A program made the translations under genes and the position numbers. Source: Rhodospirillales bacterium (GTDB taxonomy: Bacteria > Pseudomonadota > Alphaproteobacteria > Rhodospirillales > WMHbin7). Taken from it: a stretch of DNA of 64,000 nucleotides. Positions 3,442 to 54,522 of this stretch are shown here, piece after piece. Under the pieces are notes generated by a model. It worked only from the letters and a program-made list of their open reading frames with translations. It had not been told where the DNA came from and did not search any database. Each line of letters opens with the position of its first letter. The stretch's first letter is position 1. The stretch lies in assembly GCA_016214125.1 (NCBI GenBank), contig JACRPC010000036.1, positions 1 to 64,000 on the forward strand, written 5' to 3'.

Positions 3442-3573
3442 GGAGCTTCCGCGGTTCGAGGGTTAAGTGTTGGGACGGGCTCGTGTAAAAGGACTTCGCG
3501 GCAAAATTATGATGACGGCGCCAAGCCAGGGCGAGGATAGTAGCAAGAGCCAAGTTTGGGGTGAAGGAAAACG

Positions 3574-5705: not shown

Positions 5706-5733
5706 CGGGGCGTATCGTTCTCTTGCGAAGCAT
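5695..5733 (-). CDS. Possible 12-residue leader peptide overlapping the paaX-like start
   Basis: An ATG at 5733 has a much better ribosome-binding site (GGAGAGAAGG) than the paaX-like ATG at 5705. It encodes MLRKRTIRPDGG and stops at 5695, so it overlaps the start of the regulator gene in another frame. This is the geometry of translational coupling. It could equally be chance. Confidence 0.3.
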   Translation of the reverse strand: MLRKRTIRPDGG

Positions 5734-5827
5734 CTTGGAACCTTCTCTCCTCGCCAATTATCCCCTTGCCGGGATTGATCGATCCCCCATAATGGCGCCA
5801 ACGTCGTGCCGACACGTTCGACGGCTC

Positions 5828-5876
5828 TATAATGTGATACAGTTTTTGCTCGCAGTTTGCAAAAAATTGTGGCAAA
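5828..5876 (+). promoter_or_regulatory. Candidate -10 box and dyad in the paaX/transporter intergenic region
   Basis: A perfect TATAAT lies at 5828-5833, about 90 bp before the binding-protein gene at 5922, with no clear -35 box. Downstream, TTTGC (5856-5860) and GCAAA (5872-5876) form an inverted repeat with an 11-nt spacer. This could be an operator, for example for the adjacent PaaX-type protein. Confidence 0.3.
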
Positions 5877-5921
5877 AACGCATCGCAATGCCGATTAACA
5901 TTGTTTACGGGAGGACTTTGG

Positions 5922-7079: not shown

Positions 7080-7092
7080 GCGTAACGGCGAC

Positions 7093-7121
7093 CGCCCGCC
7101 CCCGAAAAACGGGGGCGGGCG
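7093..7121 (+). terminator. Intercistronic hairpin after the binding-protein gene
   Basis: CGCCCGCCCCCG and CGGGGGCGGGCG form a perfect 12-bp stem with an AAAAA loop, 13 nt after the stop codon. No T-run follows, so it is more likely an RNA-stabilising or attenuating hairpin than a full terminator. Such a structure would keep the binding protein more abundant than the permeases. Confidence 0.75.
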
Positions 7122-7154
7122 AATCGTATCCGCCCTGGGGGATCGACACCGACC

Positions 7155-8030
7155 ATGCTGGCTTCCTTCCTGCAATTCGTCTTCTCCGGCATCACCGTGG
7201 GCTCGATCTACGCGCTCTGCGGCCTGGGATTCTCGATCATCTTCAACGCCAGCCACGTCATCAATTTCGCCCAGGGCGAATTCATCATGATCGGCGGCAT
7301 GGCCACCGTCTCCCTGGTCGCCTTGGGCGTGCCTCTGCCGGTGGCCATTCTTCTCGCCATCCTGGCCACCATGCTGGTGGGCTTCGCCTTGGAGAAATTC
7401 GCGGTCGAGCCGGCCCGCAAGGCTTCGGTGACGACGCTGATCATCATCACCATCGGCGCCTCGATCTTCCTGCGCGGCATCGCCCAGGAACTGTGGGACA
7501 AGAACTTCCACAAGCTGCCGCCCTTCTCGGGCGACCAACCCTTCCTGATCGCCGGCGCCTCGCTGATGCCGCAAAGCCTGTGGGTGATCGGGGTCACCGT
7601 GGTGGTGATCGTCGGGCTTGGTTGGTTCTTCAACCGCACTTTGGAAGGCAAGGCGATGCTCGCCACCTCCTTCAACACCCTGGCCGCCCAGTTGGTGGGG
7701 GTCAACACCAAGAAGGTGCTGCTGATGAGCTTCGGCCTCTCGGCCATGCTGGGCGCCATCGGCGGCATCGTGATCACGCCGATCACTTTCACCAATTACG
7801 AAACCGGCATCATGCTGGGGCTCAAGGGCTTCTCGGCCGCCGTGCTGGGCGGCCTGGGCAACGGCATGGGCGCCGTGGTCGGCGGGCTGATCGTCGGCAT
7901 CGCCGAGGCGATGGCGGCCGGCTACTTCTCGTCGGCCTACAAGGACGCCGTCGCCTTCATCATCATCCTTTTCGTGCTCTTCTTCATGCCGAGCGGTCTG
8001 TTCGGCAAGAGCGGCACCGAGCGCGTATAG
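7155..8030 (+). CDS. livH: Liv-type ABC transporter permease, LivH family
   Basis: A 291-residue inner-membrane permease with about eight hydrophobic segments. The LivH signatures are GLGFSIIFNASHVINFAQGE near the N-terminus and FSAAVLGGLGNGMGAVVGGL near the C-terminus. It forms the membrane channel with the LivM-type partner, whose gene starts 12 bp after this stop codon. The substrate is set by the binding protein encoded upstream. Confidence 0.9.
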   Translation: MLASFLQFVFSGITVGSIYALCGLGFSIIFNASHVINFAQGEFIMIGGMATVSLVALGVPLPVAILLAILATMLVGFALEKFAVEPARKASVTTLIIITIGASIFLRGIAQELWDKNFHKLPPFSGDQPFLIAGASLMPQSLWVIGVTVVVIVGLGWFFNRTLEGKAMLATSFNTLAAQLVGVNTKKVLLMSFGLSAMLGAIGGIVITPITFTNYETGIMLGLKGFSAAVLGGLGNGMGAVVGGLIVGIAEAMAAGYFSSAYKDAVAFIIILFVLFFMPSGLFGKSGTERV

Positions 8031-8042
8031 AGGCCGGACACC

Positions 8043-8981
8043 ATGTTTCGCAACGAACGGATGATCGGCCTAGCCGTGCTGGCGGTGATCATCGCCATTC
8101 TGCCCCAGTTCCTACCCAACAATTATTACTACGATGTCGCCATCCAGGCCGGCTTCAACGCCATCGTCTGCGTCGGCTTGAACCTGTTGATCGGCTATGC
8201 CGGCCAGATCAGCCTGGGCCATGCCGGCTTCTTCGGCTTGGGCGCCTACGCCTCGGCCATCCTGTGCACCCGCTATGGCTGGCCGCCGATTCTGGCCCTG
8301 TTGGCCGGCGCTCTCGTGGTGGGCGTGTTGGCCTTCGTGCTGGCCCGGCCGATCCTCAAGCTCAAAGGCCATTATCTGGCGATGGCGACCTTGGGCATCG
8401 GCATCATCATTTCGATCGTGCTCAACACCGAAGCGCAGATCACCGGCGGCCCCGACGGCATTTCGGCCGGCCCCTTCTCGATCGGCGGCTACACGATCAA
8501 GACCGAGCAGACCTGGTATTGGGTGGTGGGCGGCACCTTGCTGGTGGCCATTTGGCTGGCCAACAATCTGGTCGATTCGCCGGTCGGCCGGGCGCTGCGC
8601 GCCGTCAACGGCTCGGAGGTGGGCGCCGAGGTGGTGGGCGTCGACACGGCGCGCTACAAGGTGCTGGTCTTCGTCGTCTCGGCGGTGTTCGCCTCGGTCG
8701 CCGGCAGCCTGTTCGCCCATTATCTGCCGCAGATCACCCCGGCCAAGGCCGACTTCTTCAAATCGATCGAGTTCGTCACCATGGTGGTGTTCGGCGGCAT
8801 GGCCTCGACCTTCGGCTCGCTGGTCGGCGCGGTGTTCCTCTCCGCCCTGCCCCAGGTGCTGACGGTGTTCGAGGATTACGAGGCGATGATCCTGGGCGCC
8901 ATCATGATGGGAACCATGATCTTCATGCCGCGCGGTCTGGTGCCGACCTTGGGCTCGCTGTTGGTCCGGAGGCGCGGATGA
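8043..8981 (+). CDS. livM: Liv-type ABC transporter permease, LivM family
   Basis: A 312-residue permease with the LivM hallmark GYAGQISLGHAGFFGLGAYA and the C-terminal region TMVVFGGMASTFGSLVGAVF. It pairs with the LivH-type subunit. The stop codon overlaps the start of the next gene (ATGA), which indicates translational coupling with the ATPase. Confidence 0.9.
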   Translation: MFRNERMIGLAVLAVIIAILPQFLPNNYYYDVAIQAGFNAIVCVGLNLLIGYAGQISLGHAGFFGLGAYASAILCTRYGWPPILALLAGALVVGVLAFVLARPILKLKGHYLAMATLGIGIIISIVLNTEAQITGGPDGISAGPFSIGGYTIKTEQTWYWVVGGTLLVAIWLANNLVDSPVGRALRAVNGSEVGAEVVGVDTARYKVLVFVVSAVFASVAGSLFAHYLPQITPAKADFFKSIEFVTMVVFGGMASTFGSLVGAVFLSALPQVLTVFEDYEAMILGAIMMGTMIFMPRGLVPTLGSLLVRRRG

Positions 8982-9742
8982 CGCTTCTGGTCGTCGACAA
9001 TCTGTCGAAGGAATTCGGCGGCGTCCACGCCGTCGAAGGCCTGTCGTTCGCCATCAACCCCGGCACCATCCATTCGATCATCGGCCCCAACGGCGCCGGC
9101 AAGACGACGCTGTTCAACCTGATCACCGGCATCTACAAGCCGACGGTCGGGCGCATCCTCTTCCAGGACCAGGACGTCACCGCCAAGCCACCCTACGAGC
9201 TGGCGATGCGCGGCATGTCGCGCACCTTCCAGAACCTGCAGGTCTTCTTCAACATGAGCGCGCTCGAGAACGTGATGGTCGGCCGCCATCTCCATCTCAA
9301 CCGCGGCATCCTCACCTCGCTGTTGCGCCTGCCCGCCATCGCCAAGGGCGATGCCGCCTGCCGGGACAAGGCGGCCGAGCTGATGCGCTTCGTGGGCCTC
9401 GAACGTTTCCTCGACGCCCAGGCCGATTCCATGCCCTACGGCGCCCTGAAGCGCCTGGAGATCGCCCGCGCCCTGGCGGCCGAGCCGGCGCTTCTGCTGC
9501 TCGACGAGCCGGCGGCCGGCCTCAACGCCACCGAAAGCCACGAGGTCGACGAGGTGATCTCGAAGGTCGCCAAGCAAGGCGTCACCGTCGTTCTGGTCGA
9601 GCACAACATGAAAATGGTGATGGGAATCTCGGATCACATTCTGGTCCTCGATTACGGCAAGAAACTGGCCGAAGGCACACCCGAGCAGGTGCGCAACAAC
9701 CCCGACGTCATCGCCGCCTATCTGGGGGGAGGTGCGGCATGA
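8978..9742 (+). CDS. livG: Liv-type ABC transporter ATPase, LivG family
   Basis: A 254-residue cytoplasmic ATPase. Walker A is GPNGAGKTT and Walker B is LLLLDEPAAGLN. The signature region, MPYGALKRLEIARAL, replaces the canonical LSGGQ with YGALK, as is common in LivG. The C-terminal segment VEHNMKMVMGISDHILVLDYG is typical of the family. Start and stop overlap both neighbours, so it is coupled in the operon. Confidence 0.9.
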   Translation: MTLLVVDNLSKEFGGVHAVEGLSFAINPGTIHSIIGPNGAGKTTLFNLITGIYKPTVGRILFQDQDVTAKPPYELAMRGMSRTFQNLQVFFNMSALENVMVGRHLHLNRGILTSLLRLPAIAKGDAACRDKAAELMRFVGLERFLDAQADSMPYGALKRLEIARALAAEPALLLLDEPAAGLNATESHEVDEVISKVAKQGVTVVLVEHNMKMVMGISDHILVLDYGKKLAEGTPEQVRNNPDVIAAYLGGGAA

Positions 9743-29388: not shown

Positions 29389-29418
29389 CGGGGGTGCTAC
29401 GGTGCCGTGGCGCCCCCG
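29389..29418. terminator. Hairpin between the dodecin gene and ppsC
   Basis: CGGGGGTGC (29389-29397) pairs with GCGCCCCCG (29410-29418) with one G-U pair. It sits between two convergent genes and includes the ppsC stop codon. It may serve as a bidirectional terminator; no T-run follows. Confidence 0.4.
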
Positions 29419-30083
29419 CCCTCGCGGCAGGATTGGGCGTCCTGGCAGATTTCCAGCATCGGATAGCCGTTCTTGACGAAAATGCCCGCCACCCGTTCCG
29501 CATCGGCATCGCGGAAGCGGAGGATGACTTTTTTCGCGCCCGTGTCGCCCGGCATCGGCACGGTGAACAGCGATTGCAACACCGCGCCCGCCTCTTCGGC
29601 CAGTTGGGCGATCGTGCCCAGCGTGCCCGGCGCGATGGCGATCGGGCCGAGGGTAATGCCCGACCAGTGATCCCATACCCCCAGCACCTGCGCCGCCAGA
29701 CGGAAGATTTCCGAGGCCGAGACCAGCCCCACCACCCGGCCCTCGTCCAGCACCGGGAATTGGCTGACCTTTTCCTCTTGCCCGCGCAACAGGCAGGTCT
29801 CCATGGTGTCGGAAACATCGACGGTGGCGGGATTGCGCACCATCAGATCCTTCACCTTCAGGCGATGCGCAAAGTAATCGAACTCGTGCGGGTCCTCGGT
29901 GCGGGTCACCCATTCCGAGGCCCTGAGGCAGTTGATGCGGGTGAGCAGGCCGCGCAGCCGCCCGTCATCGACCACCGGCAGGGCGCGCAAATTCTTTTCG
30001 ACCAGGATGCGCTTGGCCTTGGAAACCAGGGTGTCGCTGGTGACCGTGACCGGCTGCGGCTTCATCCAATTGCGGACGATCAT
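29397..30083 (-). CDS. ppsC: Phenylphosphate synthase subunit 3 (CBS-domain protein)
   Basis: A 228-residue protein (about 25 kDa) with two CBS domains (MIVRNWMKPQPVTVTSDTLV and VKDLMVRNPATVDVSDTMET...SQFPVLDEGRVVGLVSASE), then an ACT-like C-terminal part. In Thauera aromatica the 24-kDa phenylphosphate synthase protein 3 has two CBS domains and stimulates phenol phosphorylation. Size, domains and operon context match. It lies 16 bp after the Tm-1-like gene. Generic CBS proteins are common, so the assignment rests largely on context. Confidence 0.75.
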   Translation of the reverse strand: MIVRNWMKPQPVTVTSDTLVSKAKRILVEKNLRALPVVDDGRLRGLLTRINCLRASEWVTRTEDPHEFDYFAHRLKVKDLMVRNPATVDVSDTMETCLLRGQEEKVSQFPVLDEGRVVGLVSASEIFRLAAQVLGVWDHWSGITLGPIAIAPGTLGTIAQLAEEAGAVLQSLFTVPMPGDTGAKKVILRFRDADAERVAGIFVKNGYPMLEICQDAQSCREGGGATAP

Positions 30084-30099: not shown

Positions 30100-31359
30100 T
30101 CAGCCGGTTTTGCGCAGGCCGGGCTTCGCCTGATCGAACAGGCGGACGAACTCGTCGACCGCCACCTTGGCGAATTCCGGCGTGTAGAGGTGGAGATCGA
30201 CCTCGCGGATCGCCGATTTGTCGTTGAGTTTCTCCTTCAATCGCGCGACGAAAGCGGCGTCGGCCACCGGGTCGTAGAGCGGACGCCCTTCGCGATCCAT
30301 CGACGACCAGCCCTTCAAGGGCACCAGGAAGCGAAACGGCCCGCGCGCCGCGTTCAAGCGCTCGGCGATGACGTCGGCCGCTTGGCGCAGCTCGTCGGCG
30401 GTGGTGCGGACCTGGACGCGCAGCGCGTCTTGCACATATTGGGGGCGGTCCTTGGTGGCCTCGAGCTTGTCGGGCCGCCCGCCATAGCTCAGCAGGTCGA
30501 GCCCGCAGGGCGCCAGCACGGTCGGCACGCCGCGGGCCGCCGCCGCCTTCAGCCGATCGGGACCCGGATCGCGGTTGCCGCCGAACAGATGCTCCATGAC
30601 GCCGCCGATGCACAGATCGAGCACGCCATGGAAGGCGCCGTCGGCGATCATCTCCTCCATCGCCTTGTCGCCCTTGCCCTGGGCGTGGCAGACGATGGGC
30701 GTGAAGCCCGCCTCTTCCAAAAGGCCCAACGCGGTTTGCACCGCCATCTCGCCGAAGCCGAAGGAGGAGACGGCGACCACCGGCGTGTCGAATCGGATGT
30801 CGGTGCCCATGCTCATTTCGACCATGCCGCAGATGGCGCCGACCGCGTTGGTGATCTGGGCCTTCAAGAGCGGATTCATCTTCACGATGTCGAGCACCGT
30901 GTGGTGCATGGTGATGTCGCGGGTGCCGACATATTTGTCGATATAGGCCGGATGGGCGGCCATCGGCGAGGCCATCAGCTTGGGCATGCCGAAGGGCAGG
31001 CGTTTCATGATGCTGGTGGCGACGAGCGTCGCGGTGCCGCCGCCGATGCCGATGACGCCATGCACCCGCCCCGCCTTGTGCAATTCGTCGACGATGGCGG
31101 CAGCGCCGGCGATCTGGTTGTTGGTCGCCCGGTCGCGGTCCGAGCGGTAGAATTCGCGCACCTGCTCAATCGCCAAGCCGCCGCGCCTGGCCACCTCTTC
31201 GGTCGGGATATCGCCGGGGAAGGGCGGCGGCTCTTCCATGCTGAAATCGAGCAGGATCGGCTCCAGCCCGCGGCTCGTGATCAGATCCTTGACGAAGACG
31301 ATGTCTTCGCCGCGCGTGTCGAGATTGCAGATGATGACGACGCCCTTCTTGCCGGCCAT
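30100..31359 (-). CDS. Tm-1-like / UPF0261 protein
   Basis: A 419-residue protein of the UPF0261 family. It has an N-terminal Tm-1-like nucleotide-binding half (GVVIICNLDTRGEDIVFVKD, GVIGIGGGTATLVATSIMK) and a C-terminal TIM-barrel-like half (PVVAVSSFGFGEMAVQTAL, GVLDLCIGGVMEHLFGGNRD). Tomato Tm-1 is a viral inhibitor and the bacterial role is unknown. ATG 31359 has GGGGAG upstream. It lies between the UbiD-type gene and ppsC, so it may act in phenol metabolism. This gene is not part of the described Thauera phenol cluster as I recall it. Confidence 0.75.
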   Translation of the reverse strand: MAGKKGVVIICNLDTRGEDIVFVKDLITSRGLEPILLDFSMEEPPPFPGDIPTEEVARRGGLAIEQVREFYRSDRDRATNNQIAGAAAIVDELHKAGRVHGVIGIGGGTATLVATSIMKRLPFGMPKLMASPMAAHPAYIDKYVGTRDITMHHTVLDIVKMNPLLKAQITNAVGAICGMVEMSMGTDIRFDTPVVAVSSFGFGEMAVQTALGLLEEAGFTPIVCHAQGKGDKAMEEMIADGAFHGVLDLCIGGVMEHLFGGNRDPGPDRLKAAAARGVPTVLAPCGLDLLSYGGRPDKLEATKDRPQYVQDALRVQVRTTADELRQAADVIAERLNAARGPFRFLVPLKGWSSMDREGRPLYDPVADAAFVARLKEKLNDKSAIREVDLHLYTPEFAKVAVDEFVRLFDQAKPGLRKTG

Positions 31360-31387: not shown

Positions 31388-31420
31388 CCCTCCGCGTCCC
31401 GTTGGCCGGAACGCGGAGGG
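31388..31420 (-). terminator. Terminator or attenuator inside the phenol operon
   Basis: CCCTCCGCGT and ACGCGGAGGG form a perfect 10-bp stem with a 13-nt loop. On the minus strand ATTTTTC follows. It lies between the UbiD-type gene and the Tm-1-like gene, so transcription of the last two genes is probably reduced or needs read-through. Confidence 0.75.
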
Positions 31421-31430
31421 GTACCCGCCG

Positions 31431-32918
31431 CTACTTCTTCGCCTTGGCGGCGGATTTCGGCCGCGTCAGGCGGTTGACCATGGTGGCCACCGGGCTTGAG
31501 CCGGCGAAGCCGTACTCGTTCCAGCGATCGGAAACCTTCTGGAGCACGTCGCGGTCCATGAAGATTTCGTTGGGCTTGTTCTTCCACTCATAGGGCGTGC
31601 AGGCATCGAGAATGATGCGGCTCACGATGTCGCGCGCCTCGATCGGCAGGCCGGGATCGAGCGGCGTCGAACGGCCGCGATCGATGATCTGCGCCGACCG
31701 CTTGGGATCGAAGCGGGTGGAGAGCGCCCACATCACCCGATCCCAGTCGTCGGCAGCGATGTCGTGATCGACGGTGATCACCCCTTTGACGCCGTAATGG
31801 CCGGTGGTGGAGGCGATCACCGCGTTGCCGACATGGTTGGAATGGCCCGGATATTTCTGGCGCACCGAGACGATGGCCCAAAAGCGGCCGCAGGCCTCGG
31901 GCGGGATGTAGACGCTTTCGATGCCCGGCACCTTCATGGTTTCGAGATCGTGCCACAGCGTGGCGGTGCGGTTGAGCGACTGGATCATGTGGATGTCGTT
32001 GATCGGCTTGCCGACCGTGGTCGCCCAGAAGATCGGCTTGTTGCGATGCAAGATGCGCTTCACCCGCAGGACCGGCTTCGGATAGTCCTTGCCCTTGTTG
32101 CCCGAATAATAGCCGGTGTATTCGCCGAACGGGCCTTCATCCATCAATTCGTTGGGATCGATGAAGCCCTCGACGATGATCTCGGCGGTGGCCGGCAGGC
32201 GCAGCCCGGTGAGGTCGGAGATGAAGGTCGGCACCGGCCGGCCGCGCAGGGCGCCGGCGATGTCGTACTCGTCGACCTGGGCGCTCACCAGGGTCGAGCC
32301 GGCGAGGAACAGGATGGGATCGCAGCCGACCACGGCGGCGGCCGGCATCAATTGGCCGCGCTCCTGGTACTGCTTCATGTGGAAGTCGCCGTGCTTGCCG
32401 GCGATGATCTGCGAGCCCAGGATGTCCTTGGCCAGCACCTGCGAGCGGTAGGTGCCGAGATTGGTCCAGCCGGTGTCGGGGTCCTGGGTCACCAGATAGC
32501 CCGAGGTGACGAAGAAGCGGCCGCCATCATCGGGATAGAACCAGGGCACCGGGAATTTGTAGAGATCGATGGCGTCGCCGGTGATCACGTTTTCCATGAC
32601 CGGCGGCTTGCTCATGATCTCGGGCTTGATCAGGCTTTTGGTGGTCAGCTCCATCCATTTCTTGCTGAGCGCGCTCATCGACAGGCCGGGGTCCTGCTCG
32701 AGCGCCAGGGCCATGCGGGCCGGAGTGGAGAAGGCGCTGGTGAAGACCGGAATCGAGTGGCCCTTGACGTTCTCGAACATCAAGGCCGGACCCTTCTGCT
32801 CTTCGTTCACCTTGGCGACGTGGCAAAGTTCGAGGTTCCAATCGACCTCGGTCTTTACCCGGTGCAGAACGCCGTGCTTGTCGCAAGCGGCAATGAAATC
32901 CCTAAGATCCTGTATCAT
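31431..32918 (-). CDS. UbiD-family carboxylase, probable phenylphosphate carboxylase subunit
   Basis: A 495-residue UbiD-type enzyme. Prenyl-FMN chemistry residues are visible: Arg158 in TNLGTYRSQ, and Glu261 and Glu266 in DEGPFGEYTGY, with the five-residue spacing known from Fdc1. It lies downstream of ppsA and ppsB, matching phenylphosphate carboxylase alpha/beta subunits that form 4-hydroxybenzoate from phenylphosphate and CO2. It needs prenylated FMN, but no ubiX is in the window. The small gamma and delta subunits of the Thauera enzyme are not found beside it. Confidence 0.85.
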   Translation of the reverse strand: MIQDLRDFIAACDKHGVLHRVKTEVDWNLELCHVAKVNEEQKGPALMFENVKGHSIPVFTSAFSTPARMALALEQDPGLSMSALSKKWMELTTKSLIKPEIMSKPPVMENVITGDAIDLYKFPVPWFYPDDGGRFFVTSGYLVTQDPDTGWTNLGTYRSQVLAKDILGSQIIAGKHGDFHMKQYQERGQLMPAAAVVGCDPILFLAGSTLVSAQVDEYDIAGALRGRPVPTFISDLTGLRLPATAEIIVEGFIDPNELMDEGPFGEYTGYYSGNKGKDYPKPVLRVKRILHRNKPIFWATTVGKPINDIHMIQSLNRTATLWHDLETMKVPGIESVYIPPEACGRFWAIVSVRQKYPGHSNHVGNAVIASTTGHYGVKGVITVDHDIAADDWDRVMWALSTRFDPKRSAQIIDRGRSTPLDPGLPIEARDIVSRIILDACTPYEWKNKPNEIFMDRDVLQKVSDRWNEYGFAGSSPVATMVNRLTRPKSAAKAKK

Positions 32919-32948: not shown

Positions 32949-34043
32949 TTAACCGAGCTTCTTCCCCGCCATGATGCTGGCGAGAATCATTTCCGCCGCC
33001 GTTTTCGGCGCCGCCGGTGCGGGCGCGCTTTCGGCCTTCTTGGCGCTCCAGACCGTTTCCGGACGGGCCTGGAGAATGAAGACGTTGCCGCCGGTGGGCA
33101 TGTCGTTGTCGACCGCCCATTCGATGTCCATCGGCTGGCCGTAATGCTTTTCGATCGCCTTGCCCATGCGGGCCAGTTCGAGCAAATCCTCGTCGAGGAT
33201 TGACTGCACGGCGCGCCGCTCCATCGGCAGATCGTGGCGCACGCAGGTTTGGCTTACGCGGTCGACGGCGTAATACATTTCCTTGGCCGGCACCGAGCGG
33301 CGGATCACTTCCATCGAGATCTTGTTGATCAGGAATTCGTCGGGCGTCACCTCGCCCGAGACCACCGATTCGCCGAAGCCGAAATTCGAATTGACGACGA
33401 TCGACGAGCGGTCGCCGTTGGTGGGGTTGATGGTGAACATCACCCCGGCGGCCGCCGAATTGGCCATCTTCTGGATGCCGACGCTGATCGCCACCTTGTC
33501 GTGCGGAAAGCCCATGCGGGCGCGGTACGCGATGGCGCGGCCGGTAAACAGGCTGGAGAAGCAGCGCCGCACATAGTGCAGAACGTCGTCGACGCCGCGC
33601 ACCCACAGGAAGGTGTCCTGCTGGCCGGCGAAGCTGGCGCCCGGCAAATCCTCGGCGGTGGCGCTGGAGCGCACCGCCACCGGCACGGCGGGCACGCAGC
33701 AATGGGTGGAGAGGCGGCGGTAATATTCGGCGACGCTGTCTTCGAAGTCGAGGGTGAAGGGCACCGCCTCGATCTCGGCGCGAATCGCGGTGCTGGCGCT
33801 TTCCAACGCCTCCATGTCGGTGGGATCGAGGCCCTTCAGGCGATCCAACACCCGTCCTTCCAAGCCGCTTTGGTGAAAGAAGCGGCGGTAGCCTTCGGTG
33901 GTGATGGCGAAGCCGGGCGGCACCCGGACGCCGGCATGGATCAGCTCGCCCAGCGAGGAATTCTTGCCGCCCACCCGTTCGACAGCATCCTTGCGGCACT
34001 CCTGAAACCAGCACACCACAGGCTCGGCGGTACTCATTGACAT
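32949..34043 (-). CDS. ppsB: Phenylphosphate synthase subunit 2 (ATP-binding)
   Basis: A 364-residue protein (about 40 kDa) equal to the N-terminal ATP-binding part of PEP synthase: VGGKNSSLGELIHAGVRVPPG, AVRSSATAEDLPGASFAGQQ and FVWAVDNDMPTG-like C-terminal residues. It lacks the phosphohistidine and PEP/pyruvate domains. This matches the 40-kDa protein 2 of Thauera phenylphosphate synthase, which with protein 1 transfers the beta-phosphate of ATP to phenol. GGGGAG precedes ATG 34043. A stable hairpin separates it from ppsA. Confidence 0.88.
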   Translation of the reverse strand: MSMSTAEPVVCWFQECRKDAVERVGGKNSSLGELIHAGVRVPPGFAITTEGYRRFFHQSGLEGRVLDRLKGLDPTDMEALESASTAIRAEIEAVPFTLDFEDSVAEYYRRLSTHCCVPAVPVAVRSSATAEDLPGASFAGQQDTFLWVRGVDDVLHYVRRCFSSLFTGRAIAYRARMGFPHDKVAISVGIQKMANSAAAGVMFTINPTNGDRSSIVVNSNFGFGESVVSGEVTPDEFLINKISMEVIRRSVPAKEMYYAVDRVSQTCVRHDLPMERRAVQSILDEDLLELARMGKAIEKHYGQPMDIEWAVDNDMPTGGNVFILQARPETVWSAKKAESAPAPAAPKTAAEMILASIMAGKKLG

Positions 34044-34116: not shown

Positions 34117-35955
34117 TTATTGGGCGATGGTGATTTCGCCGGTGGTGCCGTTGACGCGGATGTTCATGCCGGTCTTGATGATCGAGGTGGCGTGACCCGT
34201 GCCCACCACCGCCGGCATGCCGTATTCGCGGCAAACGATGGCGGCGTGGCTCATCACCCCGCCGACATCGGTGACGCAGGCCTTGATCTTGACGAAGGCC
34301 GGCGCCCACGAGGGCGAGGTGGTCGGCGCCACCAGGATTTCGCCTTCCTCGAGCTGGCGGATGTCGGCGACGGTTCGGCAGACGCGTGCCTTGCCCTCGA
34401 CGGTACCCGGACTGCCCGCGAAGCCGGTGAACTCCTTGATCGAGGCGATGTCCTTGGCCTCGCGCACCTTGGCCCAGGCCGCCAACGACTGGTTGGTGAT
34501 GCCCCACAGAACGACGGTGAAGGGCTCCTGAATCACCTCCGGCGCCTTGCCCAGGGCCGGCGGCGGCTTCCATTCGCGGAACTTCTTCATGCAGGTCTTG
34601 CGGAACTCGATCTCCTTGGGCCAGATCTGCGGCCCGCGCGGCCCGACATTGGTGGCCCAGGCGGTGACCAGATCCCAAAGCGCGTCCTTGATCTCGGAAC
34701 GCTTCAGGTACCAGATGTCCTCGACGTCGGCGATGAAGCCGTGCGCCTTCATGATCGCGCCCACTTCGCGCACCTTGTTCCAGAACACCGAATGGAACCA
34801 GTGTTCGACGTAGAACAGGTGATTTTCGACATAGGGGAAGACGGTCTTGGCGGTGCCCAGCATCTGATCGAAGGTGGCGCGGGCCGCGTCGTCGGTGATC
34901 AGCGCCCGGTATTCGCCGGTGACGCGGTCGCGTTCCTTGCGCACCGCCTCCAGGGGTCGCTCGATCGACTGACCCTTGCGGATCTTGTCGATGTAGATGC
35001 CGATCGAGGACAGGGGCACGTCGAGATCGTCGTTCCACGATTTGTCGTGATGGTACCAGCCGGTGCCGGTGGAGACCCAGAACCAGGGATAGCGGGCCTT
35101 CTCGAAGGCGGCCAGCCATTGCTGCCCGGCGGGGGTCTTCTTCAATTCCGCCGAAGCGGCCGTGAAGGTCGGCTTGGACACCACGGCGCCGTCGACGCCC
35201 AGTTCCACCGCCTTGCGCGCCAGATTCTTCAGCTCTTCGTCGGGCTGATACATGATGACGTCGATGCCCGAGATCATCTGGGTGATGCGCTGGGTGGGAA
35301 TGTCGGGGAACTGCTTCTGGCAGAAATCCATGAAGGTGACGTAGGCGGCGTAGCCGAGATTGAGGAATTCGAAATGGTATTGCCAGCAGCGGATGCCGAG
35401 ATCGATCAGCTCGTCATAGGCCTTCAAGAGGTGATAGCCCTTCGATTCGCCCAGCGCGTCGTCGACGACGTTCTTGGCTTCCATGTCGGGCAAGGGCTCG
35501 ATCTTGATCGCTTCCAGGCTGGCGATGGTGGCCTTGATCTTGGTTTCCCACTTGGCGACCAGCTTGTCCCAGTTCTGGTAGTAGTAGCCGGCGCGCTCGA
35601 GGAACGGACCGACGCGGGCCTCGATCTCCTTGGGGTTGGTGACCGGCACCGGCGTGATGTAGATGTAGCCGTTGATGATGCGGTGATCGACCCCGAAGAC
35701 CGGCGGCACCGAGAAGATGCGGGTGTTGTACTGCGACAGCGCCAGGAACCAGGCTTCGTCCCAGATCATGTCGAACGGATAGATCGGTTCCGGATAGTGC
35801 AGGCCGTCATAGAACCAGAACATGTCCTTTTCGTACTGGTTGCGCTTGGCGTCGTCGGTGGTGAACGGGTACTGGTACGGATACATCCGCTGCCAGCCCT
35901 CGGTTCCCGGGATATCCTTGAACTCGTGCGGGTTCGGAAAGTTTTGATTGGCCAT
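34117..35955 (-). CDS. ppsA: Phenylphosphate synthase subunit 1 (phosphohistidine)
   Basis: A 612-residue protein (about 70 kDa). The C-terminal swivelling domain carries GGVMSHAAIVCREYGMPAVV with the phosphorylatable His570, as in PEP synthase. The long N-terminal part is specific to phenylphosphate synthases. In Thauera the 70-kDa protein 1 carries the phosphohistidine and hands the phosphate to phenol. It is the first gene after the sigma-54 promoter at 36161-36177. The 5' untranslated region would be about 190 nt. Confidence 0.88.
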   Translation of the reverse strand: MANQNFPNPHEFKDIPGTEGWQRMYPYQYPFTTDDAKRNQYEKDMFWFYDGLHYPEPIYPFDMIWDEAWFLALSQYNTRIFSVPPVFGVDHRIINGYIYITPVPVTNPKEIEARVGPFLERAGYYYQNWDKLVAKWETKIKATIASLEAIKIEPLPDMEAKNVVDDALGESKGYHLLKAYDELIDLGIRCWQYHFEFLNLGYAAYVTFMDFCQKQFPDIPTQRITQMISGIDVIMYQPDEELKNLARKAVELGVDGAVVSKPTFTAASAELKKTPAGQQWLAAFEKARYPWFWVSTGTGWYHHDKSWNDDLDVPLSSIGIYIDKIRKGQSIERPLEAVRKERDRVTGEYRALITDDAARATFDQMLGTAKTVFPYVENHLFYVEHWFHSVFWNKVREVGAIMKAHGFIADVEDIWYLKRSEIKDALWDLVTAWATNVGPRGPQIWPKEIEFRKTCMKKFREWKPPPALGKAPEVIQEPFTVVLWGITNQSLAAWAKVREAKDIASIKEFTGFAGSPGTVEGKARVCRTVADIRQLEEGEILVAPTTSPSWAPAFVKIKACVTDVGGVMSHAAIVCREYGMPAVVGTGHATSIIKTGMNIRVNGTTGEITIAQ

Positions 35956-36160: not shown

Positions 36161-36177
36161 CGCAAGGGTCGTGCCAA
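36161..36177 (-). promoter_or_regulatory. Sigma-54 (-24/-12) promoter of ppsA
   Basis: On the minus strand TTGGCACGACCCTTGCG matches the RpoN consensus TGGCACG-N4-TTGC. The invariant GG and GC are separated by the correct 10 nt. Transcription would start near 36150 and run into ppsA. The adjacent activator with a GAFTGA motif and rpoN itself (48010) support the assignment. Confidence 0.85.
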
Positions 36178-36423: not shown

Positions 36424-38211
36424 ATGACGGAAGCCCCCTTGGCGGCGCCGCGCCCGATCGACAAGGGCCGGCTGGCGACCGGCCGGCTGGCGCAAACCGA
36501 CGACAGTCTGGAACGCGCCTATCCCGACATCGGCGATCTGGCGGCCCGGTTGCGTTTTGCCTTTCGTGACGGGCGCATCTGGTTCGACAACCAGCGCGTG
36601 GCGCTGGTCCATCTCTCGACGTTGGAATCGCTTAGGCGCGAATTGATCGACACGCTGGGCGCCGGCGAGGCGCGCGGCTTTCTCACCCGCATGGGCTACA
36701 GCTCGGGGGCGCGTGACGCCACGCTGGCACGCAAGCTGCGCCCCAACCATGCGCTGCGCGACGCCTTTTTGGTCGGGCCGCAATTGCGCCTCTTGCAAGG
36801 CGTGGTGTCGATGGAGCCGGTGCGTCTGGAAATCGATGTCGCCGCCGGCCATTTCCTGGGCGAGTTCGTCTGGCCGGAATCCTTCGAGGTCGATTCCCAT
36901 CTGTCGACCTATGGGCCGTCGAGCGCGCCGGTCTGCTGGATGCAGATCGGCTATGCCTGCGGCTACGCCAGCACCTTTCTCGGCCGCCCGGTGCTGTTCA
37001 AGGAAATGGAATGCCGGGCCAGCGGCGCGCCGCATTGCCGGGCGCTGGGCAAGCCGATCGAGCAATGGGACGATATCGACGCCGATCTGGCCGCCTTGCA
37101 GCCCGCACCCTTCGCCAACCGCTTCACCGCAAGGCGGCGCACCACCGGGCCGGCAGCGGCGCGGGAAACGGTGGTGCTCGACGATCTGGTCGGCGTCTCG
37201 GCCGGCTTCGTCGGCGCCTGCCATTTGCTCACCAAGGTCGCCGACACCGACGCCACGGTGCTGTTCCTGGGCGAAACCGGGGTCGGCAAGGAGCGCTTCG
37301 CCCACACGCTGCACCGGATCGGACGGCGCGCCGACAAGCCCTTTGTCGCCGTCAATTGCGCCGCCATTCCCGACAATCTGATCGAATCGGAACTGTTCGG
37401 GGTCGAGAAGGGCGCCTTCACCGGCGCCTTGGCCTCACGGGCCGGGCGTTTCGAGCGCGCCCATGGCGGCACGCTGTTCCTGGACGAGGTGGGCGCGCTG
37501 TCCTTGCCCGCCCAGGTCAAGCTGTTGCGCGCCTTGCAATCGCGCGAGATCGAGCGCGTCGGCGATCGCCAGACCCGCCATGTCGACATCCGCCTGGTGG
37601 CGGCCACCAATCTCGATCTCGATCGGGCGGTGGCGCGCGGCGAATTCCGCGACGATCTGCTGTTCCGCCTCAACATCTTCCCCATCCGCATCCCGCCCTT
37701 GCGCGAGCGGCGCGACGACATCCCCCTTCTGCTCGATCACTTCTTGCACACATTCGCCACCCTGCATCGGCGCGAGGTGACCGGCTTCACCGAAACGGCC
37801 ATTCAGGCGCTGTACGACTACGATTATCCCGGCAACATCCGCGAGCTTGAGAACCTGATCGAACGGGCGGTAATCCTGTCGGACGGCCGTGGGGCGCCGA
37901 TCGATCTGTGCCACCTGCAGACCATGGGGCGGCCGATCGCCCAAGCCGCTCCCCGCGAACCGCTGGCGGCCGAACGCGCCGACGCCCCAGCGGCCGCCGG
38001 CAAGCCGATGGTCGAACGCCTTTTGGAAACCGGCCTGTCGATCGAGGCCTTCGAGGACGAGTTGATGGACGCCGCGGTCAACCGAGCCGGCGGCAATCTG
38101 GCGCGCGCCGCCCGCATGCTGGGTCTGACCCGCCCGCAGCTCGCCTATCGCCTGAAGCGCAAGGGCAACCCGGTTGCCGAGGCGGAGAGCGGCGGGTCGA
38201 CGCCGAATTAA
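36424..38211 (+). CDS. XylR/DmpR/PoxR-type sigma-54 activator
   Basis: A 595-residue regulator. An XylR-type N-terminal sensor (about 37-150) and a V4R domain with Cys171, 179, 197 and 205 make up the aromatic-effector module. A sigma-54 AAA+ domain follows, with Walker A GETGVGKE (283-290) and GAFTGA (330-335). The C-terminus is a Fis-type helix-turn-helix (NLARAARMLGLTRPQLAYRL). Relatives bind phenols directly and then activate RpoN promoters. GGGAGGA precedes ATG 36424. It is divergent from ppsA, the expected target. Phenol as the effector is inferred. Confidence 0.9.
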   Translation: MTEAPLAAPRPIDKGRLATGRLAQTDDSLERAYPDIGDLAARLRFAFRDGRIWFDNQRVALVHLSTLESLRRELIDTLGAGEARGFLTRMGYSSGARDATLARKLRPNHALRDAFLVGPQLRLLQGVVSMEPVRLEIDVAAGHFLGEFVWPESFEVDSHLSTYGPSSAPVCWMQIGYACGYASTFLGRPVLFKEMECRASGAPHCRALGKPIEQWDDIDADLAALQPAPFANRFTARRRTTGPAAARETVVLDDLVGVSAGFVGACHLLTKVADTDATVLFLGETGVGKERFAHTLHRIGRRADKPFVAVNCAAIPDNLIESELFGVEKGAFTGALASRAGRFERAHGGTLFLDEVGALSLPAQVKLLRALQSREIERVGDRQTRHVDIRLVAATNLDLDRAVARGEFRDDLLFRLNIFPIRIPPLRERRDDIPLLLDHFLHTFATLHRREVTGFTETAIQALYDYDYPGNIRELENLIERAVILSDGRGAPIDLCHLQTMGRPIAQAAPREPLAAERADAPAAAGKPMVERLLETGLSIEAFEDELMDAAVNRAGGNLARAARMLGLTRPQLAYRLKRKGNPVAEAESGGSTPN

Positions 38212-40388: not shown

Positions 40389-41975
40389 TCAGACTTCCGG
40401 CAACACTTTCGACAATTGCTCGAAGGTGAGCTGCTCGCGCTTGGCCTCGTCGAGATAGGACATGCCGATGCCGTATTCCGCCCAACGCTTCTTGATCTGG
40501 CGCTCCAGCGCCACCGGAATGGTGTTGACCGGCGGAAAGCGCCGATCGCCCCAATCGGGGTTGCGCTCGAATTCCCAGTTGCGCGTGGCGTCGATCAGCA
40601 CCCGGGTCCATTGGCCGGTGCCGTACTTGGCCGGGTTGGCCTGGTCGCGCGGCGTCGAGGGATCGAGCACCGAACCGAAGGTGGGCCCGAAGGTAAGAAG
40701 CTGGCCCTGGCCGGCATTGACCCGAAAAGCCATCGCCCAATCGAGCGCCGCCGGATCGCGCAGGTCGATGTCCTCTTCCACCACCATCACGTTCTTGAAG
40801 AACCACTGGCCGGCGCTGGTGCCCCACAGCGCGGTCGCCACCTGCTGGGCGTGGCCGCGATAGGCCTTGCGGATCTGCACGACGATGTTGGTGCCGGTGC
40901 TGACCGGCGCCATCCAGACGTCGGTGACGTTGGCCACCCCGGCCGCCTCCAGCATGTTCCAGGCGATCGCCGACCAGGAATAGGCGCAGAGCACCGAATC
41001 CTCGCTGGGAAAGCCCGGCCGCGCCCCTTCCAGGGCGCCGCGCAAGATCGGCTGGTCGCGGTGGGTGATGGCGGTGACCTTCAGGACCGGCTTCGGCGTC
41101 GGTTTGCCGCCGCAATAGCCCGGATATTCGCCGAAGGGGCCTTCGACCATGAAGGTGGCCGGATCGGGATCGATATATCCCTCGACCACGATTTCGGCCG
41201 AAGCCGGCACCTCGAGATCGACCGTCTCGCAACGCACCAGATCGACCGGGCGGCCCAGGATGGCGCCCATCATGTCCCACTCGCAGATGTGCTTGGGAAA
41301 GGGGCTGCCGGCGCAGAACGGCATCACATCGTGCCAGCCATGGGCGATCGCCACCTCGAGCCGCTGGCGCTTTTCCTTCACTTGCAGGAAATGGCCGCCC
41401 CAGCCCTGGGTGGGTATCAGCAGCTTGCCGATCTTGTCACGATCAAGCACCTGGCCGCGATAGAGTCCGACATTGGGCCGTCCGGTGCGCGCATCCTTGG
41501 TGACGACGCCGCAGAAGGTGTCAAGGAAGCGCCCCCCATCCAAATGGTGCCATTTCGGCACCGGGAAATCGTAAAGATCGATCGCCCTTCCCTTGAGGAT
41601 GTTCTCTTTGACCGGACCCGATTTGACACGCCGGGGCGGAATCGGCTTCTGGTAGGTCTCCTTGAGATGGCGGACGATCGCCCGATCAGGGGTGTCGGCG
41701 GGCAGGCCCAGCATCAAGAGCACCTGGCGCCGATTGCTCATGCCGCAGGTGAAAAAACGTGTGCAGCGGCCCTTTTCGTAATCCTTGATGTTCTCGAACA
41801 AAAGGCCCGGACCGCCCATCGACAGGTTGATGCGCGCCAAGGCGCCGATTTCCTGATCCCAATCGACCTTGGCGCCGATGCGGCGCAATTCGCCCGCCTT
41901 CTCAAGATCGGCAAGCCAGGTCCGCAGGCTGGGTCCGGATTCCTTTTTTGGGGCCCGCTTCGTCGTCTTCGCCAT
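40389..41975 (-). CDS. Second UbiD-family (de)carboxylase
   Basis: A 528-residue UbiD-type enzyme with Arg173 (PNVGLYRGQ), Glu278 and Glu283 (VEGPFGEYPGY), the prenyl-FMN catalytic set. It differs clearly from the enzyme at 31431-32918. It is 3 bp downstream of a 4HBT thioesterase gene, so the two form an operon. It could be the second phenylphosphate carboxylase subunit or act on another hydroxy- or phthalate-type aromatic acid. The N-terminus is Lys-rich. Confidence 0.85.
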   Translation of the reverse strand: MAKTTKRAPKKESGPSLRTWLADLEKAGELRRIGAKVDWDQEIGALARINLSMGGPGLLFENIKDYEKGRCTRFFTCGMSNRRQVLLMLGLPADTPDRAIVRHLKETYQKPIPPRRVKSGPVKENILKGRAIDLYDFPVPKWHHLDGGRFLDTFCGVVTKDARTGRPNVGLYRGQVLDRDKIGKLLIPTQGWGGHFLQVKEKRQRLEVAIAHGWHDVMPFCAGSPFPKHICEWDMMGAILGRPVDLVRCETVDLEVPASAEIVVEGYIDPDPATFMVEGPFGEYPGYCGGKPTPKPVLKVTAITHRDQPILRGALEGARPGFPSEDSVLCAYSWSAIAWNMLEAAGVANVTDVWMAPVSTGTNIVVQIRKAYRGHAQQVATALWGTSAGQWFFKNVMVVEEDIDLRDPAALDWAMAFRVNAGQGQLLTFGPTFGSVLDPSTPRDQANPAKYGTGQWTRVLIDATRNWEFERNPDWGDRRFPPVNTIPVALERQIKKRWAEYGIGMSYLDEAKREQLTFEQLSKVLPEV

Positions 41976-50242: not shown

Positions 50243-51073
50243 CTACGCGGCCTTCTCCACCGCCACCGGACCCTTGCCGCTGGCGATCATCCGCAGCCGA
50301 ATATGGCCGAGGATCGCGCAGCCCAAAGCCGCCGTGTATTGCGGCAGATCGCCCTCGGGCACGTTGACGTCGATCTTCAGATCCTGGCGGATCGCCTGGG
50401 CCATGCGGCCCCAGCGCAGAATGCCGCCCACCAGCGTCACCTTGGGCTCGACCTTGACCCGCTTCAAAAGCTGGACCGAACGGGTGGTGAGCGACAGGCC
50501 GGCGCCGTACATGATGTTTTCCGGCGGCACGCTGTTGCTCAAATGGTTGATGACTTCCGATTCGGCGAACACCGTGCAGACGCCCGAGATCGACACCGGT
50601 TCGGTCGCCTTGGTGAGCAGGCCGTCGATGTCGACGGTGTCGTAGCCCATGTAACGCACCGTCTTTTCCAGGAACATGCCGGTGCCCGAGGCGCATTTGT
50701 CGTTCAAACGGAAGGTGCGGACCTTGCGCGTCTCGTCGACCCGGCTGGCCTTCATCGTTTGGCCGCCGATGTCGAGCACGGTGCGGGTGTCGGGGAAGAG
50801 GAAGCTCGCCCCCCGGGCGGTGGCGGTAAGGTCGGTCACCTGCAAATCGCGCTCGGCGTATTGGTGGCGGCCATAGCCGGTGGTGATGCAATAGGCGAGG
50901 TCGGCAGGCGTGATCTTGCCCAAGGCCGCCGCCTCGGCCACCACGGCGGTCGCCGCATCCTGCAGGCGGGCGCCGGTGGGCTTCATCGCGCGGGCCACGA
51001 TGCGGTGTTGGTCGTCGAGAATAAGGCCCTTGGTGTAGGTGGAGCCGATGTCGAGTCCGATCGTGTAGGTCAT
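50243..51073 (-). CDS. Benzoyl-CoA reductase ATPase subunit (BcrD/BzdQ-type)
   Basis: A 276-residue ASKHA ATPase ([26 protein letters not shown]). Cys127 (NDKCASGTG) and Cys166 (GVCTVFAE) are the ligands for the [4Fe-4S] cluster shared with the partner ATPase. ATP hydrolysis drives low-potential electrons to the catalytic subunits. It is last in the four-gene operon and overlaps the partner gene by 4 bp. Confidence 0.88.
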
Positions 51074-51897
51074 GCCCGTGCCTCCGCGTAAACCCGTTCC
51101 TCGGTTCGCCCTTCGCCCGCCTGGAGATGATCCATGGCGTAGAGGGCGGCGCCCAAGGCGCCCATGAAGTGGCTATCCTCGCTGACGTTGAGCTTCCGCT
51201 CCAGCATCTCTTCCAGCGCTTTGATCATACCGATGTTGCGCGCCACGCCGCCGGTGAAGGTGATGCCGTCGACCAGCCCGACCCGGCGCAAAAGGCCGAT
51301 CGAGCGGTTGGCGATCGATTTGTGCACGCCCCACAGAATATCCTCGACCGAACGGCCCTTGCCCAGCCAGGAGATGATCTCGGCCTCGGCGAAGACGGTG
51401 CAGGTGGTGCTGATGCGCACCGGCCGATCGGAATTGAGCGCCGTCGGGCCAAGATCGTCGAGCGTCATGCCCAAGGCCTTGGCCGCCGCACCCAGGAATC
51501 GCCCGGTGCCGGCGGCGCATTTGTCGTTCATGCAGAAATCGATGATCTCGCCATCGGGCTTGACCCGAATCGCTTTGCTGTCCTGGCCACCCATGTCGAG
51601 CACGGTGCCCGTGCCCGGGAACATGTGGGCGGCGCCACGGCCGTGGCAACTGATCTCGGTCACCTGGCGATCGCCGAAGGTCACCTTGTAGCGGCCATAG
51701 CCGGTGCCGATCACGTAACCCACCGCATCGCGGGGGATGGTGGTCGTGGCGAGCGCCGCGTCGAAGGCGTTCTGCGCCGCCCGGCTCACGTCGGCGCCGG
51801 TATCGATGAGCGAGCGGGCGACGATCGTGCGGCTCTCGTCGATCACCACGGCCTTGGTCTGGGTCGAACCGACATCCACTCCGGCGGTGTAGCGCAT
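51070..51897 (-). CDS. Benzoyl-CoA reductase ATPase subunit (short BcrA/BzdP-type)
   Basis: A 275-residue ASKHA ATPase ([27 protein letters not shown]) with Cys127 (NDKCAAGTG) and Cys166 (TTCTVFAE). These are the same positions as in the partner. Thauera-type BcrA is about 440 residues, so two short ATPases point to the Azoarcus Bzd/Mbd subclass. ATG 51897 has GGAG upstream, 19 bp after the preceding gene. Confidence 0.88.
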
Positions 51898-51916
51898 GGC
51901 TGATTCTCCGCTTGTC

Positions 51917-53101
51917 CTAATTGAACATGATGTTTTCGAGGAAGGTTTCCATCTGAATGGCAATGTCGTCGAACGAGTTCTGGTTCTCTTCGAACTCGCT
52001 GATGAAGTAGGGAATCTTGTGCGCCTCAAGCTCCTTGGCGTAGGCCACCTGTTCGTCGAGACCCGGTTCGCACATCTTGGCCGCCGCCAGAATCGCCGCC
52101 ACCGCCTGCGATTCCTTGATCCGCTTGAGGAGCATCTTCTCCTTCGGCTTGTCGTGGTCGTGCTGGACCGGGCTGTAGGAGGAATCGGAGAGGTAGGCGC
52201 GGGCCAAATTCTCAACCGGATCGCCGGTAACGGGCACGTCGCTCAGCAGCCAGCGCAGGCCGATGTAGAGATCGTCATCGACCACGTAACAGGAGCGCGC
52301 CACCGCCTGCAACAGATCGAAGGGCGGAACCTCGCAGAAGCCGCCTTCGAAGACGACGCGCATCTTGTCTTGCTTGCGGGCCGGGCGGGCGGCAATCAGG
52401 GGCAGCACCGCGTGCATCAGAGCGATGAAGTCCTCGACCGGCAGGATGCCGGCCAGCCCGACCAGGGCCAGCGATTCGTCGGGCGCGATTTTCCAGGGCT
52501 CCTCGCGGCGAATGCGGTAGAGATCGCGCATCAGCGCCCGGGCTTGATTGTAAAGGCCGATCGAGCGCGCCAGATCGGCGTCGGTCACTTTGCGGCCCGC
52601 CGTGGCCTCGATGTCCTTCAGGATGCGGGCGTATTCGGAACGCAGATAGGGCAGGGCCGCCGTCGTGTTCGGATTCTGCGGCAGATGCAGAAGCTGGCAT
52701 TTGTAGGAGAAGTTGCGCCCCCAGATGCCGGCCAGATTGCGCGCCCCATCGCAGATCGGCAAGGAGACGAAGAGGTCGAGTTCGATGTCCTTGGTCAGCG
52801 CCACGTCGAGCGAACTCTTGAGGATCGAGCACAGATAGGAGCCGAAATGGGGGTTCGATTCCAACCCCTCGGTCTGGGCGCCGCGAATCTTCACCGGCAG
52901 AAGCCCGCCGGCATGCGCCAGCTCTTCCGGAAAATAGACCTGGAAATGGCCGATGACCTTGCCGCCCTTGGCCCGCCAGGCCTTGACGGTGGGGTAAGTG
53001 GGGTCCTCGACCAATTCGCGCGCACGCAGGAAGATTTCCTGCAGTGGCCGCGAGGCCCATTCGGCGGGCGACGGCATCGGCACGGCGGTTCCGTTTTTCA
53101 T
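51917..53101 (-). CDS. bzdN: Benzoyl-CoA reductase catalytic subunit, BcrC/BzdN-like
   Basis: A 394-residue HgdB/FldC-type subunit. Visible features are [38 protein letters not shown] with the cluster-ligand Cys, and [20 protein letters not shown]. With the larger subunit it binds benzoyl-CoA and [4Fe-4S] clusters for ring reduction. It overlaps the upstream gene by 4 bp. A 2-hydroxyacyl-CoA dehydratase is the main alternative, but the two ATPases argue against it. Confidence 0.87.
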
Positions 53102-54489
53102 TGCGCGGCCCCCACGATGGCCGGCGCGGTCTGCTTCTTCTGCTTGCGGGCGATCATGCCCTCGAAGAAGGCGTCGGCGCGGTTCTTCATCTGCGCCTTG
53201 GCGACCGAGCGCGGATCGACGACGTCGGATTCCAGGAACAGGGTCGAGATGCCCAGCCGCTCGGCGGCGTGGTGGCGCCGATCCGCTAGGCCGGACGAGA
53301 TGGTGCGGCAGCTTTTCACCGAGTGATAGACGATGCCGTCAAGATTGTATTGGGCAAGCCGGGTTTCGATTTCCGGCGTTTCGAAAATCAGATTGGCGAT
53401 GGTGTCGCGCACCGTTTCCAGCGTGCCCTCGGCCAGGCTCTCGATCGGGTTGTTCAGATCGTACTCGAAGCCCATGCCGGTGCCGCCGGAGGCGAAGGTG
53501 AGATAGGCCGAGGTGACGAAGGTGCCGCCCCAATCGGTGAAGAACTCGTTGAAGCCGCGGAAGATCGGGTAGCAGGGCACGCCGATGAAGCCCAGGCGGA
53601 AGCGCTGATCGGCCTCGACGTCCTTGCCGTCGACCTTCATCAAGGGACCGATGCCGTTCTGGGACCGGAAGGTCATTTCCTCGAGCAGGTCCTTGAAGAA
53701 CTTGGCGCCGGTTTCGGTGGCACGGAAGCCGTTCGACATGCCGAGATAGACCAGGCCGTCGGTGAGCACGTTGAAGGCGGCGGGCGTGCGTTCGTTGAGC
53801 TTCAGGATGTCGCGCCAGGCCAGGCTCATCTCGTTGGCGTATTTCAGATGCATACGGAACTTGTCGATGTCGAATTTCTTGCCGGTCAGGCGCTCGCAGG
53901 TGGCGATCAGGTCCTTCACCTGGCCGACGATGTAGGCCAATTCGTTCTTGTACTCCTCGCTGCCCCTGGGGCTGCGGGTGTGATTGGCGCGCTCGGCCGG
54001 AACGTCGATCACCGAGACTATCGTGCCGTGCATGCGCTCCCAGATCTCCACCCACTTGAAGTAGGTGTTGCAGGCGTTGGTGGTCACCGCCAACATCGGC
54101 TTGGGGATGCGGGCCATCGGGTGCTTGCCGCCCAGAAGCTGGGTGGCGAAATCGACCTTCACATAGCCGCAGATGTCGGGCGAATAGCCGTAATCCTCGG
54201 CCTCGCGCAGATACTCCTCGGAGACGCGGCGCACCGCCGTCTGCAACGAGTTGATCTCGGGAAACACCACCGGCATGTCGAAGGTGCGCAGCACCTCGTT
54301 CATGTTGCCCATGACGAAGCAATAGGCGGCGCCCTCGCCGCGCTCGGCCAGTTGGGAAAGCTCGGCAAACCAATCGCGGAACAGCTTGGCGCCTTCGCGG
54401 GCGCCGCGGCCGACGATGCCGCTTTCGGTGTCGAAGACCCGGCGTCCCGCCAGGGTGCCGGCCGCTTGGCTTGCAGGGGCCGCGTTCAT
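53098..54489 (-). CDS. bzdO: Benzoyl-CoA reductase catalytic subunit, BcrB/BzdO-like
   Basis: A 463-residue HgdB-type subunit with [55 protein letters not shown] and [19 protein letters not shown]; conserved Cys in these segments ligate [4Fe-4S]. ATG 54489 has AAGGAG 9 nt upstream. It is the first gene of the operon. The order large subunit, small subunit, ATPase, ATPase matches mbdONQP of Azoarcus CIB as I recall it, rather than the bcrCBAD or bzdNOPQ order. Confidence 0.87.
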
Positions 54490-54522
54490 GTCCGTCATCT
54501 CCTTAATCAAAGACCAAACGGC

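Follow-up and report, generated by a model that had tools for sequence, protein, structure and literature searches.

A UPF0261 (Tm-1-like) gene occupies the place of ppcA, ppcC and ppcD in a recurrent type of phenol operon

To our knowledge, the Thauera-type enzyme PpcABCD is the only one for which the anaerobic carboxylation of phenol has been worked out in detail. The original study of Geobacter metallireducens reportedly found no CO2/4-hydroxybenzoate exchange. Exchange of CO2 with 4-hydroxybenzoate is a property of the alpha-beta-gamma core of the Thauera enzyme; to use phenylphosphate, the enzyme also needs its delta subunit, a slow phenylphosphate phosphatase (PMC6114531). Only a ppcB homologue of the carboxylase was reported for the phenol cluster of G. 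metallireducens, a ppcB homologue is present in the phenol cluster of Desulfatiglans anilini, and the fact that both organisms lack PpcC has been interpreted as pointing to another catalytic mechanism (PMC6114531). Two further pathways are pertinent. In the Hpe/Acv/Hac hydroxyphenylethanone pathway (HpeHI, HpeCBA, HpeD), a two-component dikinase is employed and phosphorylation precedes carboxylation (PMC9618137, PMC12167813). The Novosphingobium aromaticivorans pathway begins with the single-component phenol kinase MarK (PMC13101465; for MarK, Hall et al. 2025, J Biol Chem 301:110606, as cited therein).

We analysed a stretch of 64,000 nucleotides (the window) from a Rhodospirillales bacterium. 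It contains one strand-coherent operon with the order ppsA-ppsB-ppcB-UPF0261-ppsC, in which the genes for PpsA, PpsB and PpsC occur together (Table 1). The original prediction, according to which a UPF0261/Tm-1-like gene lies between a UbiD-type carboxylase gene and ppsC, 16 bp from the latter, was borne out as to reading frame, domains and gaps. The gene follows the ppcB-type ubiD gene after 71 bp, and its product matches the N-terminal UPF0261 domain PF06792 with 171.4 bits (E 2e-50) and the C-terminal domain PF23189 with 223.8 bits (E 2e-66), the gathering cut-off being 27. No second UPF0261 gene was detected in the genome (G000), and UbiX was not found within the window.

Table 1. Features of the phenol-type operon in the window, and MarK-like UPF0261 genes in other loci
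Feature	Position	Strand	Evidence and remarks
UPF0261 (Tm-1-like) protein, 419 aa	30100..31359	-	ATG at 31359, stop at 30100; PF06792 and PF23189
ppsA, phenylphosphate synthase alpha (swivel and phenol-binding component)	34117..35955	-	NF006152 1104 bits, cut-off 723; PEP-utilizers mobile domain
ppsB, phenylphosphate synthase beta (ATP-grasp component)	32949..34043	-	PF01326 E 2.9e-114
ppcB-type UbiD (prFMN carboxylase), type II	31431..32918	-	TIGR02724 575.8 bits, NCBIfam equivalog cut-off 468.95
ppsC, phenylphosphate synthase gamma (two CBS domains)	29397..30083	-	PF00571, two copies
Stem-loop, 14 bp perfect, then TTTTT; between ppcB and UPF0261 gene	31388..31420	-	RNA fold z -2.36
Sigma-54-type -24/-12 site TGGCACGACCCTTGCG, 1 mismatch, upstream of ppsA	36161..36176	-	position fits a sigma-54 activated operon; the pattern also matches by chance
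Divergent XylR_N-V4R sigma-54 activator (CapR/MopR/MobR-like)	36424..38211	+	PF06505, PF02830, PF00158; CapR 6iy8 E 5e-139
MarK-like UPF0261 genes	L053 5363-6574; L040 4853-6127; L066 4850-6133; L189 7706-8947; L190 7668-8906		beside biotin carboxylase, HAD phosphatase and SDR genes

Operons of this kind (type II) resemble those of Thauera and Aromatoleum encoding PpcABCD (type I) in having PpsA, PpsB, PpsC, a PpcB-type UbiD, UbiX and a regulator of the XylR/DmpR type. In contrast to the latter, they are devoid of PpcA, PpcC and PpcD and contain UPF0261 instead, and PpcB is only 52-55% identical between the two types. Gene order is ppsA-ppsB-ppsC-ppcB-ppcD-ppcA-ppcC-ubiD-ubiX in type I and ppsA-ppsB-ppcB'-UPF0261-ppsC-ubiX in type II. 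The slot directly after ppcB holds ppcD in the former and UPF0261 in the latter; UPF0261 occupies the place where the other version of the phenol operon carries PpcA, PpcC and PpcD, a substitution that the original prediction had not noted.

No paper linking UPF0261 to phenol operons was found in the literature searched. A survey of UPF0261 gene neighbourhoods, suggested together with the original prediction, revealed that the linkage recurs in several phyla. Genomes were scanned with the window's UPF0261, which yielded 80 related loci at 55-87% identity, selected by likeness to the query. In 64 of them UPF0261 is located directly behind ppcB on the same strand, with a median gap of about 47 bp; the linkage ranks among the most constant traits of this operon type. 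These loci span alpha-, beta- and gammaproteobacteria, a number of lines of deltaproteobacteria, Geobacter argillaceus among them, and Marinimicrobia. They contain ppsA in 51 cases, ppsB in 55 and ppsC in 57, many of the remainder being cut by contig ends; most of the related loci have, at the corresponding position, a ppsC relative with about 50-57% identity. Two Spirochaetes and one Desulfallas have the same genes together in a different order, and in L025, L045 and L058 UPF0261 lies apart from ppcB. The stem-loop between ppcB and UPF0261 may, judged by its sequence, be a terminator-like or mRNA-processing-like element, and the ratio of both proteins may perhaps be set by it. A strong hairpin (stem of at least 10 pairs) occurs in this gap in about 20 of the 64 loci; the T run that follows it is peculiar to the window and missing from the hairpins of other loci. 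The idea that UbiX fills the 600-bp gap between UPF0261 and ppsC in some relatives was discarded, at least for L034, where the gap gene encodes a Nudix protein and UbiX follows ppsC. L025 additionally carries a ppsA-ppsB-ppsC set at 2929-9635; this set lacks ppcB, adjoins a complete type II set and is followed by a gene for a 397-aa protein without Pfam match.

In Rhodocyclaceae the two operon types exclude each other. As a reverse sample, independent of UPF0261, 299 genomes of Rhodocyclaceae (the family containing L007) were searched for PpsA, which was detected in 43. PpcA is present in 33 of these 43, one gene split between contigs counted. Phenol-type UPF0261 (77% identity or more) was found in 8 of the 43 and in none of the 33 with PpcA. 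Two genomes without PpcA remain: in L153 a UPF0261 gene just behind ppcB is cut off after 39 codons by the contig end, and L154 has a different PpsAB pair ahead of a biotin carboxylase. Among genomes with strict PpsA, UPF0261 is thus present in 9 of 9 without PpcA (L153 included) against 0 of 33 with it, a complete split whose significance a simple exact test would overstate, since the genomes are related. Strict PpsA is rare in a broad class-level sample (1/385).

The same exclusion is seen across phyla. PpcA exceeded its curated cut-off in none of 49 UPF0261-type genomes, and neither PpcC (TIGR02725) nor PpcD (TIGR02726) did so in any of 50 such genomes including the window's, which gave no match to either; each was recovered in all five type I controls. 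In the window's genome PpcA (TIGR02723) was not found, the best of 11 UbiD paralogs reaching 204.6 bits (cut-off 564.6). As a separate observation, L094 and L093/L095 (G390, G404, G394) contain PpcA-like UbiD genes with about 350 bits, below the cut-off; in G390 a PpcC-like gene with a weak score (26.8 bits) comes next, and these two could form a divergent PpcAC pair.

To estimate which partner UPF0261 evolves with, distances were compared in 49 loci having all four genes (UPF0261, PpcB, PpsA, PpsB). UPF0261 and PpcB distances correlate at 0.96. The partial correlation of UPF0261 with PpcB, given PpsA and PpsB, is 0.79, versus 0.13 with PpsA and 0.17 with PpsB (permutation p 0.001); the difference between PpcB and PpsA has a bootstrap interval of 0.19 to 0.85, and relatedness is not fully corrected in these Mantel-type tests. 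In L075, PpcB and UPF0261 both belong to the Desulfobacterales/Marinimicrobia form and PpsA is near that of proteobacteria; the first two thus differ in origin from PpsA and seem to have travelled together as a pair. Co-evolution with PpcB could also be expected if UPF0261 were a partner of PpsAB for which the carboxylase matters only through flux.

The AF2 model of the window's UPF0261 protein (pLDDT 93.7) has 9mpy and tomato Tm-1 (3wrw, TM-score 0.77) as its best PDB matches in Foldseek, both with probability 1.00. The closest solved relative is 9mpy, the UPF0261 protein Saro_1862 with bound acetovanillone, which matches at full length (E 4e-55 by sequence, 3e-32 by fold). From the PDB title and PMC13101465 we infer that Saro_1862 is MarK. 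Both are UPF0261 two-domain proteins with a conserved core and both belong to aryl-phosphate carboxylation pathways. However, the window's protein is linked to PpsAB and UbiD, whereas MarK replaces PpsAB ahead of a biotin carboxylase. The fold is also common to the UPF0261-TBST (PF09370) module; TBST, the usual partner of UPF0261, was rejected as partner in type II operons, as neither the window's genome nor any of the other 49 genomes of the type contains it.

In Geobacterales and type I Rhodocyclaceae, close relatives of 9mpy (E about 1e-139) have a biotin carboxylase, a HAD phosphatase and SDR genes as neighbours. Two genomes with MarK-like UPF0261 in biotin-carboxylase clusters, G415 and G423, gave no match to PpsA. 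UPF0261 proteins of the MarK clade are likely to be kinases of anaerobic 4-hydroxyacetophenone-type (p-ethylphenol) pathways. Phenol-type UPF0261 itself includes a monophyletic subclade (L040, L052, L053, L066) accompanied by biotin carboxylases instead of UbiD, hence contact with UbiD cannot be its sole function. L040, L053 and L066 combine such a protein with a MarK-like paralog, an indication that their functions differ. The dikinase of the Hpe/Acv/Hac pathway is homologous to PpsAB, and the subclade is found in clusters of this pathway (L052, L053, L066). Unlike type II operons, the pathway relies on a biotin carboxylase and not on UbiD, and several Hpe-type PpsAB clusters (L154, L157-L159) are without UPF0261.

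Type II operons lack genes for the alpha, gamma and delta subunits but contain UPF0261; the simplest reading is that UPF0261 handles phenylphosphate for PpcB'. We give about an even chance to the view that it belongs to the carboxylase side, as the phosphoryl-handling partner in a simplified phenylphosphate carboxylase ("type II") in which it replaces PpcA, PpcC and PpcD. UPF0261, a relative of the phenol kinase MarK, would bind phenylphosphate in its two-domain cleft, remove or transfer the phosphoryl group and pass phenolate on to its neighbour, the prFMN enzyme PpcB', for carboxylation to 4-hydroxybenzoate. It would do the work that is split among PpcD (a HAD phosphatase), PpcA and PpcC in the Thauera-type enzyme. 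The data show the make-up of the operon, its recurrence, the exclusion of PpcA, PpcC and PpcD, co-evolution with PpcB and not PpsAB, the fold and the kinship with a phenol-binding UPF0261 protein; that UPF0261 binds phenylphosphate and touches PpcB' physically, and in which direction and to which acceptor the phosphoryl group moves, is what we infer here. More tentatively, with chances a little short of even, phenylphosphate carboxylase may exist in two designs, in the second of which a UPF0261 phosphoryl-transfer protein and a single UbiD replace PpcA/PpcC/PpcD and phosphoryl removal (possibly onto ADP) is coupled to carboxylation. The main reading has against it that the best characterised UPF0261 relative is apparently a kinase, making and not using an aryl phosphate.

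The main rival, which we consider unlikely though worth serious attention, is a kinase role: UPF0261 might serve as a second phenol kinase that, like MarK, has a single component and converts phenol and ATP to phenylphosphate in parallel to PpsAB, forming ADP, not AMP. Family and fold are shared with Saro_1862 (bound acetovanillone), probably MarK itself, and the window's clade and the MarK clade have 55 invariant or near-invariant alignment positions in common, D14, D38, GG106-107, D148, H225 and R269 among them. MarK-like paralogs, moreover, evidently serve as kinases in the biotin-carboxylase clusters of G415 and G423. However, the window's UPF0261 falls outside the MarK-like clade (separation 100/100, about 30% identity), with 24 type-specific positions separating the two, and in all genomes that could be checked a dedicated aryl kinase is also present, be it PpsAB or, in L053 and L066, the MarK-like UPF0261. 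UPF0261 distances track PpcB and not PpsA or PpsB, and a parallel kinase would leave the exclusion of PpcA, PpcC and PpcD unaccounted for. A simple replacement of PpsAB by UPF0261 was rejected, as PpsAB is present in the UbiD-type cases checked and the PpsA-less G415 and G423 have a separate MarK-like paralog.

The MarK reaction might alternatively run in reverse, phenylphosphate and ADP yielding phenolate and ATP in a step coupled to carboxylation, whereby one energy-rich bond would be regained. We regard this as quite improbable. The core of the kinase family is kept, PpsAB forms AMP and phosphate, and what phenol carboxylation costs sulfate reducers in energy has been called unexplained (PMC6114531). 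Geobacter-like and sulfate-reducing lineages are among the carriers of type II operons, and such a gain would suit low-energy anaerobes; the operons are, however, common in Burkholderiales and Rhodocyclales too. Slightly less probable again is an accessory factor that does not act on aryl phosphate, i.e. a structural subunit, an assembly factor, a regulator of the carboxylase or a supplier of CO2 or cofactor. Tight linkage and co-evolution with PpcB would fit a structural subunit as well, but the conserved polar residues are common to the phenol-binding relative. Supply of CO2 or cofactor had been put forward in the original prediction beside phenylphosphate handling, and only the last of these three guesses is favoured now, because 9mpy binds a phenolic ketone and the N. 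aromaticivorans pathway starts with MarK. CO2 delivery is less likely since biotin carboxylases, with which the same subfamily works, activate bicarbonate on their own and need no outside supplier; cofactor supply is less likely since UbiX, the prFMN synthase, is encoded separately in or beside most type II operons. That UPF0261 is a chance neighbour or passenger gene has a negligible probability in view of its recurrence across phyla and exclusivity with PpcA, and nothing was found in favour of it.

As a partner of PpcB', UPF0261 is a concrete candidate for what G. argillaceus and other Geobacterales lack, and offers a testable answer to the question why some phenol degraders, such as Geobacter, encode PpcB alone. 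A possible role thereby emerges for a family that is widespread but uncharacterised and to which Tm-1, the virus-resistance protein of tomato, belongs. Interest in UbiD carboxylases stems from their ability to fix CO2 onto phenols, and two genes would be simpler to use for this than four subunits.

Regulators of phenol operons were compared at the sensory pocket. In phenol sensors, a histidine anchors the hydroxy group (PMC10715001). According to our reading of the alignment, this residue (GPQLH) is replaced by arginine (GPQLR or GLxLR) in the regulator of the window, and likewise in those of L009, L025, L039, L045 and L058; nearly all remaining type I and type II phenol regulators keep it. 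From the sequence, regulators with arginine possibly respond to a different, perhaps anionic, effector. Since the window's regulator has arginine in place of the phenol-anchoring histidine, the substrate of its operon need not be phenol.

The 4-Mb genome G000 has eleven UbiD-family matches, and a second UbiD in the window (40389-41975) is followed by a 4HBT thioesterase. An activase and two HGD-D subunits are encoded at 50243-54510, with scores about half the equivalog cut-offs of known benzoyl-CoA reductase subunits; they possibly represent a divergent benzoyl-CoA or 2-hydroxyacyl-CoA system.
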